Part shown: positions 41,457-45,670 of the stretch, one piece after another
Numbering within the stretch: position 1 is the stretch's first letter
How the letters are laid out: every line of letters begins with the position of its first letter
Assembly: GCF_000300235.2 (NCBI RefSeq)
Contig: NZ_CP004388.1
Span: 4,224,001-4,288,000 of the forward strand
Origin: Thalassospira xiamenensis M-5 = DSM 17429
GTDB taxonomy: Bacteria; Pseudomonadota; Alphaproteobacteria; Rhodospirillales; Thalassospiraceae
Direction: 5' to 3'
Length of the DNA stretch: 64,000 nucleotides
Program-made: the position numbers and the translations under genes
Notes under the pieces: generated by a model
Database searches by the model: none
What the model was told of the DNA's origin: nothing
What the model saw: only the letters and a program-made list of their open reading frames with translations

Positions 41457-41553
41457 TCCGGCCAGTGATGGGTCGGGATTTTCAAATATCAGCACCCGTT
41501 ATCGGCTTCCGTGAAGTCATGGGGCGGACCGCGCAGCTTCCGCCCGAACACGC

Positions 41554-41595
41554 CAGAAATCCTTGGCCAGAAATCCCTAGCCAGTAATCCTTGGC
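41554..41595. repeat. Three tandem 14-bp repeats
   Basis: Three contiguous 14-mers: CAGAAATCCTTGGC, CAGAAATCCCTAGC and CAGTAATCCTTGGC, with at most three changes between them. They lie 98 bases after the GntR stop in a 609-base gene-free spacer. Possible slipped-strand repeat or binding array; I see no matching copies elsewhere in the window. Confidence 0.75.
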
Positions 41596-41682
41596 CGTAA
41601 TGCGCGGCACAACACAGCGCAGCACTATACGGCACGGGCATACACGCCCGCAGACTACTGACACAGTATGCCCAACCAGAAC

Positions 41683-41765
41683 ATCATTCCCACGACGGCG
41701 GGAATCCATTCTGTTTCAATGGGATATGGATTCCGGGTCTGCGCGCCGCTTTGCTCGAAATGGCG
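41683..41765. repeat. Dispersed hairpin repeat of the FPRRRESI type
   Basis: The sequence is a nested inverted repeat: ATTCCC with GGGAAT (41686-41705), and GGAATCCAT (41701-41709) with ATGGATTCC (41726-41734). Translated, it gives the familiar pseudo-peptides FPRRRESI on one strand and MDSRRRGND on the other, which are signatures of a widespread intergenic proteobacterial repeat. It does not encode a protein. A further hairpin GACGGGC/GCCCGTC follows at 41806-41825, possibly a terminator. Confidence 0.75.
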
Positions 41766-41842
41766 ATTTTGATCCATTCCGGGCTTTGTCAGTAATCTGA
41801 ATTCTGACGGGCCCACACGCCCGTCGCTTTCTCTGACCAAAT

Positions 41843-42065: not shown

Positions 42066-43643
42066 ATGCTGAATGGACAGCACTATATTGCAGGCGAATG
42101 GCTGAACGGTCCGGATGTGTTTCAGGCCGACAATCCTTCGACGGGTGAAAAACTGCCAACAAAGTTCCAGCACGGCACCGAGGAACTGGTGGATCAGGCG
42201 GTTCAGGCGGCAAATGCCTGTGCCGAAGAATTTGCGGCGATGCTGCCGGCCAAACGCGCGGCCTTCCTGCGCGCGATTGCCGATGAAATTGATGCACGCG
42301 GCGATGAAATCACCGAAATCGGCAATCTTGAATCAGCCCTGCCCGCGGCACGCCTGACCGGCGAGCGCGGCCGCACCGTGGGCCAGTTGCGCTTCTTTGC
42401 CGACTGGATCGAAGAAGGATCATGGTTCGAAGCCCGTATCGAAACCGCCCAGCCGGATCGTCAACCCCTGCCAAAGCCCGACATCCGCGTGATGCACAAG
42501 GCACTTGGCCCGGTCGGTGTTTTCGGTGCGTCAAACTTCCCGCTGGCATTTTCGACCGCGGGCGGTGACACCGCATCGGCACTGGCTGCGGGTTGCCCGG
42601 TCGTGTTCAAGGGCCACGCCGCCCACCCCGGCACGTCCGAAGTCGTTGCCAAGGCCATCGAAGCCGCGATTAAAAAAACCGGCATGCCAAAGGGCGTGTT
42701 CAGCCTGATCCATGGCGGCACCCGCAAGGTCGGTCAGGCGCTGGTCGCCCATCCGCTGATCAAGGCGGTCGGCTTCACCGGCTCGACCGGTGGCGGTCGT
42801 GCGCTGTTTGATATTGCTGTTTCCCGCCCGGAACCGATCCCGTTCTATGGCGAACTCGGCAGCAACAACCCGGTCTTCCTGATGCCAAAAGCGATGGGTG
42901 CCAAGGCCGTTGAAATCGCCAAGGGCTGGGTCGGGTCGCTGACCATGGGTGTTGGTCAGTTCTGCACCAATCCGGGTCTTCTGATCGCGCTTAAGGGTGC
43001 CGATCTTGATGCCTTTGTCGAAACTGCTGCCGCCGAACTCGGTCAGGTTGGCGGTGCCGCCATGCTGACGGATCGTGTATCAAGCGCCTATCATCATGTC
43101 ACCGATGCCATGGCCGGTCACGCCAAGGTAACCTGCGCGCTTAAACGCCGCGACAGCGACGGCCCGTTCGAAGGCAGCCCGGCGATCTTCCGCACCACCG
43201 CTGCCGACTGGCAGGCCAACCCGGAACTGGCCGAAGAAATGTTCGGCCCGGCTGGCATCATTGTCGAATGCGACACGCCCGAAGAAATGGTTGCCCTGTC
43301 CGCCACCCTGATCGGGCAGTTGACCGCGACCGTTCATATGGTTGATGCCGATGCCGAACTGGCCGGGAAACTGCGCCCCGCCCTTGAAAAATGTGCGGGC
43401 CGCATCCTGATCAATGGCTGGCCAACCGGGGTCGAGGTCTGCCACTCCATGGTCCACGGTGGACCCTATCCGGCAAGCACGGATTCCCGTGCAACATCGG
43501 TTGGGTCGCTCGCGATCAAACGTTTCATCCGCCCGGTCTCCTATCAGGCCTTCCCGGATGCATTGCTGCCCGAAGCCCTCAAGGACGCGAACCCGCTTAA
43601 CATCCCGCGCCTTGTAAACGGCAAATGGCAGATGCCGAAATAA
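42066..43643 (+). CDS. Aldehyde dehydrogenase, 2,5-dioxovalerate (alpha-ketoglutaric semialdehyde) type
   Basis: A 525-residue NAD(P)-dependent aldehyde dehydrogenase. Catalytic Cys300 is in GVGQFCTNPG and Glu263 in FYGELGSNNP, and the cofactor loop is GFTGSTGGGRALFDIA. The short FYGELGSNNPVFL and WPTGVEVCHSMVHGGPYPAST segments match alpha-ketoglutaric semialdehyde dehydrogenases, which finish pentose, hexarate or hydroxyproline breakdown. ATG 42066 has AGGAGG five bases ahead; an in-frame ORF from 41988 lacks a ribosome site. It stands alone, followed by a terminator hairpin. Confidence 0.9.
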   Translation: MLNGQHYIAGEWLNGPDVFQADNPSTGEKLPTKFQHGTEELVDQAVQAANACAEEFAAMLPAKRAAFLRAIADEIDARGDEITEIGNLESALPAARLTGERGRTVGQLRFFADWIEEGSWFEARIETAQPDRQPLPKPDIRVMHKALGPVGVFGASNFPLAFSTAGGDTASALAAGCPVVFKGHAAHPGTSEVVAKAIEAAIKKTGMPKGVFSLIHGGTRKVGQALVAHPLIKAVGFTGSTGGGRALFDIAVSRPEPIPFYGELGSNNPVFLMPKAMGAKAVEIAKGWVGSLTMGVGQFCTNPGLLIALKGADLDAFVETAAAELGQVGGAAMLTDRVSSAYHHVTDAMAGHAKVTCALKRRDSDGPFEGSPAIFRTTAADWQANPELAEEMFGPAGIIVECDTPEEMVALSATLIGQLTATVHMVDADAELAGKLRPALEKCAGRILINGWPTGVEVCHSMVHGGPYPASTDSRATSVGSLAIKRFIRPVSYQAFPDALLPEALKDANPLNIPRLVNGKWQMPK

Positions 43644-43668: not shown

Positions 43669-43695
43669 AAGGGCGCGTCACAAAGGCGCGCCCTT
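43669..43695 (+). terminator. Probable intrinsic terminator after the aldehyde dehydrogenase
   Basis: A perfect nine-base stem AAGGGCGCG/CGCGCCCTT with a nine-base loop, followed by the weak T-containing tail CTGCCTT. It lies 25 bases after the stop. Confidence 0.7.
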
Positions 43696-43799
43696 CTGCC
43701 TTATGAGGCGGTCAAGGACACCCGGATCATCCTGACGGCAATGGCAGGATAGAACGCCAGACTCCGAAAGCACGGCAACAGGCCGGTTTTCCCGTAAGC

Positions 43800-44790
43800 A
43801 GGCTCAATGCCCCGCCCGGCCAAAACACGGGCCTCCAACAGCCCCACCAACGAACGATCCACTGACAGCCACAGGCTTACCGCCCGCTCCAGTCCCATCC
43901 GCCAATTGCATGACCACCGAGCCCCGACAAACCTCGGGCCTCCACCATCCTCGCCAGCAGACGGTCCACAACCTCGCTGCCCGCTACGGCCCGTTCCGGC
44001 AAATCCATGACCACGAAGCCCGGAAAAACCTCGGCTTCCATCAACGTCGCAACAGACGACCATCAGGCTCAAGGCCTGCTCCACGACCACTTCCGGCGAT
44101 GCAGGACTTTCGGCAACTCTGGACAAATCCCGGACTTTCGCCACCCTCGCCGACAGACGGCCTTCTGACGAATGCCCCACCTGTCAACCGCTGGCGGATC
44201 ACGACCCAATGCTGCCCTGCTGCCTCTTCCGGCAAATCCTCCACGACGACTGGCGATGCGGAACTTCCAGCACCCCTCGACAAATCTCGGGCCTCCATCG
44301 GCCCCACCACCAGACGGTCCACTGACGGCCCACCGACGGCCAACGACCTCACTGCCCGCTCCGGCCCCTTTCGGCAATGCCAGGACCACCAAGCCCGGAC
44401 AAACCTCGGGCCTCCAGCAACCACGCCAACTGACGACCAACGGACCGCCCATAACCTCGCTGCCCGCTCCGACCCCTTTCGCCAATCCCATGACCACCGA
44501 CGCCGGACAAACCTCGGACCTCCAGCAACCACGCCAACTGGCGTCCCACGGACCGCCCACCGGCTCTTTGCCGCCTCGATCACCGTCCGGCCAAGGCGGC
44601 AACCTGCCACCCCGACATCCAGACACACCTCGGGCGTTCGCCATTTTCACCAGTAGACACTCTTCGGGCGTACTGCCCCCAACCTGCCCACCGCTGACGG
44701 GCCACAAATCCCCGCCGCCACTGCTGCCATTGCTGCCGCTTCCGGCAAATTCGGGGTCCGTTCCCCGACAAGACGCACCTCTCCCGTCAT
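43800..44790. repeat. Degenerate C-rich tandem repeat array in a gene-free region
   Basis: About eight diverged units, each opening with a form of GACAAACCTCGGGCCTCCA. The first bases of this block occur at about 43926, 44023, 44122, 44279, 44398, 44506 and 44622, with a weaker copy near 43818. Unit lengths are 97, 99, 157, 119, 108 and 116 bases. A second block, CTGCCCGCTCCGGCCCCTTT, recurs in the middle of the units, then a CCATGACCACCGA-like end. The units at 44398 and 44506 are most alike. The plus strand is strongly C-skewed (27 C to 11 G in 44401-44460). Unit lengths are mostly not multiples of three, and all frames of both strands give low-complexity translation, so it is not a protein gene. 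It lies between the 3' ends of two convergent genes. Confidence 0.8.
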
Positions 44791-44948
44791 GACAAATAAG
44801 CGTTTTCGAAACCTGTTAGCACCAACGCGGAATGCCGCCGTAATGGCTTCGCCATCCGCCGATGAGCATCCTGCGGATTGCCCCGCGACCCTGCCTCAAT
44901 CTTTGTCCCTGCATCCCGATCACCTCTTTGATTCCGCCCCAAACGCAA

Positions 44949-44983
44949 AAACCCGCGAGGCGCACAAGGCGCTTCGCGAGTTT
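44949..44983 (-). terminator. Minus-strand intrinsic terminator downstream of the thioesterase
   Basis: AAACCCGCGAGGCGC pairs with GCGCTTCGCGAGTTT (one mismatch, one wobble; five-base loop). Read on the minus strand it ends in GGGTTTTTGCG, a T-run suited to termination. It lies 144 bases past the thioesterase stop and could instead end a small RNA that starts near 45010, where TTGATT and CATAAG lie 17 bases apart. Confidence 0.7.
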
Positions 44984-45126
44984 CGGTCCGGGTGCATTTC
45001 TCCCGTTGACTTTGTCCTTATGCCACAATGAAAAGAACAAATCAAGAACTTTTTGAAAAAACTTTATACCCGGTCAGAAAGGCGGAGCATGCAACCATCC
45101 GGGGCCGTCCTGTATTTTCATAAACC

Positions 45127-45576
45127 CTATGCGTCGCGCGGCACCCCGTTCGGGTCCTCGCTGCCGCGATGGTATTTGAAGGTGCCGGTCGCGGTTGCAA
45201 TCACCTCGCCCGCCGCGTTATAGGCCGTGGCTTCGGTAAAGACGATCTTGCGCCCGCCGCCCTGTTTGCGTCCCTCAACCCGCACCGTGCCGCCGGTTGC
45301 CATCCCGATGAAATTGGTCGTCAGTGACAGGGTCAGCGATTTGCGGACATTCCCCGGAACAGCGCAGTAACAGACGGCACAGCCCGACGCCGTGTCCATC
45401 AGGGTCGCAATCACGCCACCATGCAGGATGCCCGCCCGATTGCGGTGATGATCCCTGATTTCAAGCTCGACCACGGCACGGTCTTCTTCCCATTCAACAA
45501 CCTGATAGCCCAGATAAGCCTGAAGCCCGCTACCATGCGCCTGTTCCCAGGCAAGATTGTCATCCACATCACTCAT
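45127..45576 (-). CDS. PaaI-family hot-dog thioesterase
   Basis: A 149-residue PaaI/YdiI-type thioesterase: HRNRAGILHGGVIATLMDTASGCAV is the catalytic helix with the HGG motif and the Asp that acts as nucleophile or base, and SLTTNFIGMATGGTVRVEGRKQGGGRKIVFTEATAYNAAGEVIATATGTFKY follows. It hydrolyses small aryl- or acyl-CoA thioesters. I start at ATG 45576 (AAGG ahead); an earlier in-frame start at 45642 precedes a stretch without family match. It converges with the aldehyde dehydrogenase across the repeat array and is divergent from the small ORF at 45811. Confidence 0.88.
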   Translation of the reverse strand: MSDVDDNLAWEQAHGSGLQAYLGYQVVEWEEDRAVVELEIRDHHRNRAGILHGGVIATLMDTASGCAVCYCAVPGNVRKSLTLSLTTNFIGMATGGTVRVEGRKQGGGRKIVFTEATAYNAAGEVIATATGTFKYHRGSEDPNGVPRDA

Positions 45577-45670
45577 GTCGCCGACCTTTGCGTAAATCCT
45601 GTTTGCCAATCTATAGCAGATAAATCCAACATTTTGGACCATGCGAGTTTGGCAATAGATTGTGCATTGC

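Follow-up and report, generated by a model that had tools for sequence, protein, structure and literature searches.

What is the long degenerate repeat that fills the spacer between two convergent genes of Thalassospira xiamenensis M-5, and does this spacer hold a gene? The locus lies in the window, i.e., the whole stretch of 64,000 nt of contig NZ_CP004388.1 that was analysed, and is bordered by an aldehyde dehydrogenase gene (ORF end at 43643, PF00171) and a 4HBT thioesterase gene (45127-45642, minus strand, PF03061), in agreement with the convergent arrangement given in a preceding sequence-only reading. This reading had described about eight irregular, C-skewed units without any gene. A degenerate tandem repeat does exist: a 17-nt opener occurs in seven copies at 43816-44635, accompanied by several longer repeat families, and TRF detects tandem units with a period of 108 between 44321 and 44560 (score 354 at 84% matches). 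The openers near 44398 and 44506, said to be nearly identical, share 50 out of 54 bases, and the plus strand is indeed C-rich (43800-44799, with GC skew values between -0.26 and -0.40). As to the number of units, repeat units are present as claimed, but a profile built from three other copies recovers 5 of them in the window at E<0.01 rather than about eight, probably because the outer units are decayed.

Two statements of the sequence-only reading had to be revised. The array is very likely the 3' tail of a dispersed mobile element which starts at about 45070 and so exceeds the extent previously proposed, and the alleged absence of a gene is at odds with a 32-codon ORF at 44816-44914 (minus strand), supported as coding. 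More specifically, the window repeat is probably the tail of a non-autonomous mobile Thalassospira element carrying a LexA-type promoter cassette. Similarity to other copies stops at about 45053-45080, and similarity of the tail to the paralogue L111 reaches 43739. On the minus strand, the element reads in the order promoter with LexA-type box, intrinsic terminator, 32-codon ORF, 22-nt motif, and tail:

43739-45070 (both ends approximate), minus: whole dispersed element, promoter-first, about 1.3 kb, delimited by similarity to other copies and by the empty site
45035-45049, minus: LexA-type box GTTC-N7-GTTC (GTTCTTGATTTGTTC), overlapping the -35-like TTGATT (45040-45045)
45017-45022, minus: -10-like hexamer CATAAG, 17 nt from TTGATT, in a block conserved in 86 aligned copies
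44984-45012, minus: conserved leader AAGTCAACGGGAGAAATGCACCCGGACCG, with which the transcript is expected to begin, from the alignment of copies
44947-44980, minus: predicted intrinsic terminator (GC hairpin and TTTTT) in the interval between promoter and ORF, fold z -2.64
44816-44914 (stop 44816-44818), minus: micro-ORF of 32 aa, MQGQRLRQGRGAIRRMLIGGWRSHYGGIPRWC, with the core GxW[KR]SHYGG, from frame and codon-position evidence
44772-44793, minus: conserved post-ORF motif of 22 nt, GTCATGACGGGAGAGGTGCGTC, resembling the leader, from the 86-copy alignment
43814-44656, minus: degenerate tail array of about 108-nt units, with a transcript-strand opener of about GCCCGAGGTTTGTCCGGGC
43669-43695, no strand assigned: terminator hairpin of the aldehyde dehydrogenase gene, adjoining the element on its 3' side and possibly an old target, with only one intact copy observed

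Two other repeats were noticed in the window. A REP-like repeat containing GCGCAGACCCGGAATCC is located at 41658-41777, and elsewhere in the genome several B-type elements carry it at their 3' end. A 14-bp tandem repeat (3.2 copies) is situated at 41552-41596, upstream of the aldehyde dehydrogenase gene.

Copies and distribution of the element

With 43790-44790 as query, the host genome (G000) gave 30 matches at E<0.03, which represent the window locus and ten others. With 44640-45130 as query, 25 loci were found that share the thioesterase-proximal part, namely 23 dispersed copies and the special loci L082 and L083. The latter (G000:C1:3076894) and its orthologues consist of a short promoter-leader-terminator module without the peptide, whose position is conserved among relatives.

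The promoter pattern with at most 1 mismatch occurs in 28 out of 29 genomes of the family. Six genomes are rich in promoter copies, with 25 in the host and 22, 24, 24, 22, and 30 in the others, and the other 22 genomes contain no more than one or two, of which one typically adjoins a podovirus-like gene cluster. In case of G001 and G014, the second promoter copy precedes an MFS-like gene (by eye) and comes without the peptide. No DNA match to the element was obtained in phage and plasmid collections, the 6 pattern stretches found in viral contigs include no relatives, and no description of this element was found in the open-access literature searched.

Promoter, leader, and terminator

All 23 dispersed host copies begin with GTTC-N7-GTTC, 22 of them as GTTCTTGATTTGTTC and L065 with a single change in the spacer. 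The box is usually followed by a -10-like CATAAR 17 nt from TTGATT and then by AAGTCAAC. Among 86 aligned copies, conservation is observed for the blocks of the box, promoter, leader, terminator, ORF, and 22-nt motif, and most of the sequence outside these blocks is unconserved. The copies were gathered by the box and AARTCAAS, and the conservation of these two is given by construction; the first 8 nt of the leader likewise belong to the collection pattern. A strict sigma-70 scan reports no promoter at the -10/-35-like hexamers.

The presumed terminator sits within about 65 nt of the expected transcript start and is separated from the micro-ORF by a stretch resembling a ribosome-binding site. 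In its helix, 95.3% of the cells are paired and 45 cells are changed on both sides, above all 500 shuffles, the helix register being the best of seven; counted by base pairs, two-sided changes affect 2, which does not exceed the shuffles.

A LexA-type box in front of every dispersed host copy

GTTC-N7-GTTC, the alphaproteobacterial LexA box, precedes the lexA gene of the host (PF01726, PF00717) in the same form, and a box differing by 1 nt is situated in front of the ImuA-ImuB pair of the same genome (ImuB by PF00817, ImuA by eye). In G005, the motif is found in 19 of the 20 fetched copies, a count that leaves out one truncated copy without promoter end and three promoter copies, and the exception, L119, reads GTTC-N7-GCTC. 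Considering G000 and G005 together, the box is intact in 42 out of 43 fetched copies (again leaving out the promoter-less truncated copy of G005). Throughout the host genome, GAAC-N7-GAAC occurs 187 times versus 120 times for the reversed control, with 25 occurrences stemming from this module.

Judged from these boxes, it is quite likely that the element is under LexA control, and it would then be induced in the SOS response. If so, roughly one in three of the LexA-type boxes that the genome has in excess of chance (25 of about 67) may stem from it, and most of these 25 would come with a tiny gene of their own. The SOS response of a bacterial clade would thus have been rewired, which would provide a clean natural test of the spread of regulatory sites by transposition.

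The micro-ORF and its peptide

Out of 97 distinct copies considered after prior removal of phage-type leaders, 89 have a recognisable terminator and core and were scored. Except for one of these, all have an ATG in frame with the core (88/89), at eight different distances, every one a multiple of 3. The eight unscored copies were inspected by eye: L064 and L119 contain intact frames missed by the patterns, L228 is a phage-type locus, and the remaining five (L077, L127, L205, L223, and L226) represent one orthologous site with an early stop and hence a broken ORF.

In 86 peptides, the W-S-H-Y-G-G block varies almost only at third codon positions, and outside the core all three codon positions vary equally. 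Since these peptides were picked by W[KRGE]S[HR][YF]G, the invariance of the residues is partly a selection effect. Altered cores occur in four copies (WWSHYGG, WKSYYGG, WKNHYGG, and WRIHYGG), and the conserved ORF measures only 25-40 aa. As indicated by frame and codon positions, the micro-ORF is under coding constraint. We consider it fairly probable that the peptide is actually made; a function would be expected from the same pattern, and a microprotein family would be added.

The peptides are Arg-rich by inspection and not hydrophobic membrane peptides, for which reason a type I toxin of the TisB kind was rejected. No family match was obtained for three peptides against Pfam and PHROGs and for one against NCBIfam. 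With a peptide profile, 385 genomes sampled from the class gave strong matches only in the host (at least 20, E<=2.8e-10); six other genomes appeared at E 0.002-0.009, which we judge to be chance matches, and G007, the other Thalassospira of this sample, had none. In the searches made, the peptide is found only in Thalassospira.

Turnover and composition of the tail

Over the copies with a peptide, the unit profile detects 120 units, of which 94 are full-length, most of them 104-108 nt. Because these lengths are mostly not multiples of three, a coding repeat was ruled out, as the sequence-only reading had argued. The array might instead be a decayed protein-coding gene, and long open frames do run through the tail on the minus strand, but the unit lengths speak against this as well, and in G031 the window site is empty, with only a terminator spacer of approximately 110 bp between the same two genes. 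An intact gene of the same sequence at this position, which the earlier reading would have taken as counter-evidence, was looked for and not seen in the relatives read. We therefore regard a decayed gene as extremely improbable.

Five units are present at the window site, compared to one at the orthologous site of G038 (L249) and part of one in L114 (G005), L248 (G033), and L232. As the number of units differs at the orthologous site, the proposed birth-and-decay array holds. A presumed array extension of 1.5 kb at this site in G005 proved wrong, the extra DNA carrying other ORFs. Positions 1248-3514 of L114 (G005) contain chromate-transporter-like and rhodanese-like ORFs (by eye) between the dehydrogenase gene and the element; they are unlike the array and absent from this interval in the window.

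The strand asymmetry pointed out before is strong and turned out to be a property of the element: in G000 and G005, the transcript strand is the G-rich one in each of the 38 tails measured, regardless of the direction in which they face (mean skew 0.24). This asymmetry would suit a tail that itself acts as a functional structured or protein-binding RNA, e.g., a sponge or scaffold, with the micro-ORF being secondary. Such a role may further be suggested by the mutual likeness (by eye) of leader, post-ORF block, and tail openers, and by GCCCGA..T..GTC motifs, which most A-type tails contain in numbers well beyond those of dinucleotide shuffles, the motif having been picked from the tails themselves. 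The folding analyses point in the opposite direction. For 75 thinned units (65% mean identity), RNAalifold gave no structure on the transcript strand and none of significance on the other (z -1.36), and shuffled sequences fold as well as the tail of the window (z -1.46 and -0.16), so that the structured RNA envisaged for the array is not supported. Rfam gave nothing at gathering score in the window, two sub-gathering matches in the region being attributed to chance. Since GGA motifs are not enriched, the tail is not a CsrB-like sponge. G-quadruplex motifs (four GGG runs with short loops) are lacking in 7 out of 7 tails tested. Together with the reduction to one unit or part of one at the orthologous site of relatives, these results leave a functional tail RNA unlikely.

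Fast decay of the tail, the one site with a broken ORF, and the lack of conservation in most sequence outside the blocks would also be compatible with neutral debris, i.e., dead repeats in which promoter and ORF survived by chance or recent spread. Yet orthologous sites are common to diverged species while the box and the reading frame are kept in nearly all copies (42/43 and 88/89, respectively), and we give this explanation little credence, slightly less than the tail RNA. Most likely, the tail has little sequence-specific function, its units being duplicated and lost by recombination. Its rapid turnover argues that its exact sequence does not matter, and the conservation of box and frame argues that promoter and peptide do.

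Empty sites and duplicated hairpins

The window site, empty in G031, is filled in G000, G005, G033, G038, and G015. Judged by the upstream flank, an orthologue exists in G005 or the other named genomes for 17 of the 23 dispersed host copies. The six copies without an orthologue comprise two in L063 as well as L066, L068, L076, and L078, for which rearranged flanks are an alternative cause. In case of L068, the flank search gave no match in 4 relatives. The flanks of L076 and L078 match in all four relatives searched, and where their junctions were aligned (G005 and G033 for L076; G005, G038, and G033 for L078), the element is absent. At both sites, the upstream gene is followed by one terminator hairpin where the element is lacking, and where it is inserted, this hairpin occurs on either side of it. 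A hairpin repeat of 21 bp borders L074 on both sides, and likewise its orthologue L128.

By scan, hairpin duplication was found for 3 out of 44 promoter copies of G000 and G005, with L074/L128 counting as one event, and L076 was added by alignment. Hence the terminator hairpin is duplicated in three insertion events, and neither the window copy nor the other copies scanned show such a duplication. L076 and L078 carry different pieces of an hppD 3' end upstream of the promoter, which resemble the L073 locus (hppD and the L076 piece by eye), so the borders of the element are loose. Among the copies of G000 and G005 with an upstream ORF call, 31 out of 43 loci, L082 and L083 included, lie behind a co-directional ORF, according to crude gene calls. 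In terms of the criteria for MITEs, dispersed copies without a transposase (23 in G000) and a target duplication (three events) were observed.

Relation to IS1182-type insertion sequences

The host encodes a transposase of the IS1182 family (NF033551, 345 bits at a cut-off of 270). Its 22 distinct copies among 27 loci read are located at L141:7887-9062 and at 21 further places (L280-L305), where the whole hairpin is duplicated. All 22 lie inside duplicated terminator-like hairpins, in which a few edge bases differ. The target choice is shared, as the dispersed elements likewise entered hairpins in 3 events. The ends of this IS1182-family element read CAGACTGCTGACAAAG and GGGTTTGTCAGCGGTCTG, and in each of the four elements defined by a target-site duplication, the 3' end at the duplication consists of 9-12 nt identical to one or the other of these ends.

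The 5' side of 83 copies matches the terminal repeat of IS1182 at 8.58 of 16 positions versus 8.41 after shuffling. A general IS1182 repeat at the 5' ends was thus rejected, and since the 5' side is not above shuffles, the 5' end of the element is left undefined. The IS1182 element of the host is absent at E<=1e-20 from G005, G033, G038, G015, G040, and G031, of which the first five contain 22-30 promoter copies. Because of the negative 5' side and the absence of the insertion sequence from five element-rich relatives, we take a graded view. Mobilisation of the elements by an IS1182-type transposase is, on balance, the probable route; it is probable for the recent B-type insertions, and the A-type copy of the window may have arrived in the same way by extension from these. 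A terminator-duplicating variant would then be added to the IS1182 family.

A podovirus-like cluster with the same promoter type

The promoter type and a portal gene locus occur together in 26 out of 29 genomes (L082 in the host, 25 others by tblastn); in this count, the promoter of G009 has more than one mismatch and the cluster loci of G005, G015, and G033 are left out. In the host, the podovirus-like portal locus behind the LexA-boxed promoter corresponds to L082/L141 (G000:C1, about 1036900-1054000); portal loci elsewhere are L089-L102, L105, L106, L144-L146, L148, L151-L168, L171, L172, and L238-L245. An ORF of 80 aa mostly precedes the portal gene. The host cluster encodes a head-tail connector (PF12236), a capsid protein (PF19821), tail proteins, and a lysozyme, and about four hairpin/T-run terminators are stacked in front of it (by eye). 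It is possibly a domesticated phage or gene-transfer particle. At L141:5773-6630, inside the cluster, a 2Fe-2S ferredoxin domain is fused to a phage lysozyme.

As promoter-type loci lie beside portal genes throughout the genus, the dispersed elements share a promoter-leader-terminator module with the phage-like cluster. This common module is the basis of a further explanation, in which the elements are satellites that borrowed promoter, leader, and terminator from the cluster and are read through only in the presence of a cluster-encoded antiterminator. The joint occurrence in 26 of 29 genomes, the identified portal, capsid, and tail genes, the stacked terminators of the host, and the cluster leader of G040, which resembles that of the dispersed elements, fit this idea. 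On the other hand, no antiterminator was identified, nothing in the cluster corresponds to the remainder of the dispersed element, and most genomes contain the cluster without elements, so that a satellite nature is unlikely, to about the same degree as a functional tail RNA.

A still more doubtful extension is a satellite-like network, in which about two dozen elements would have copied the module of the possibly domesticated cluster. Upon damage, a putative antiterminator of the cluster would open all of them together, Arg-rich peptides and G-rich tail RNAs would feed back on expression or packaging of the cluster, and IS1182-type transposition would spread the elements into terminators. In this case, each new copy would put damage-inducible transcription downstream of a host gene.

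Working model and comparison with known systems

The best-supported working model remains that of a selfish or domesticated DNA-damage-type cassette. The three datable insertions took place at intrinsic terminators, whose hairpin was duplicated, and IS1182-family transposases would move the elements in trans. Upon DNA damage, LexA would leave the promoter, and the derepressed promoter would give rise to a short, terminated leader RNA. Part of the transcription would then pass the terminator, from which a long RNA including the tail, as well as the Arg-rich peptide, would result.

TisB, DinQ, and SidA are hydrophobic small proteins under SOS control. The element is similar to these in that a LexA-type box would drive a very small protein, and differs in an arginine-rich peptide, about two dozen copies, and apparent mobility. 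Phage late promoters combine an early terminator with Q-type antitermination. Similar to these, the element has a predicted intrinsic terminator within about 65 nt and shares its module with a phage-like cluster, whereas here no antiterminator or site for it was identified and structural genes are lacking downstream of the dispersed copies.

BrickBuilt, a MITE of Porphyromonas gingivalis, is a non-autonomous element with promoter activity and 19 intergenic copies in one strain (PMC4596501). Its 23-nt repeats and small inverted-repeat ends differ from the present element, and the available part of that source mentions neither a LexA box nor a terminator in the leader nor a family of micro-ORFs; common to both is a multi-copy, non-autonomous, intergenic element which contains a tandem array (PMC4596501). 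IS1272 and TnSha1, IS1182-family elements of staphylococci, insert into hairpins, several of which were shown to be transcription terminators, and a neighbouring host gene can be carried along by use of a degenerate outer repeat; IS1272 is reported to delete part of the hairpin and to produce no target duplication (PMC4923244). Here, the whole hairpin is duplicated and the present elements come without a transposase; insertion into hairpins is a common feature, and, to judge by the hppD pieces of L076 and L078, neighbouring sequence may be carried along in a similar way.
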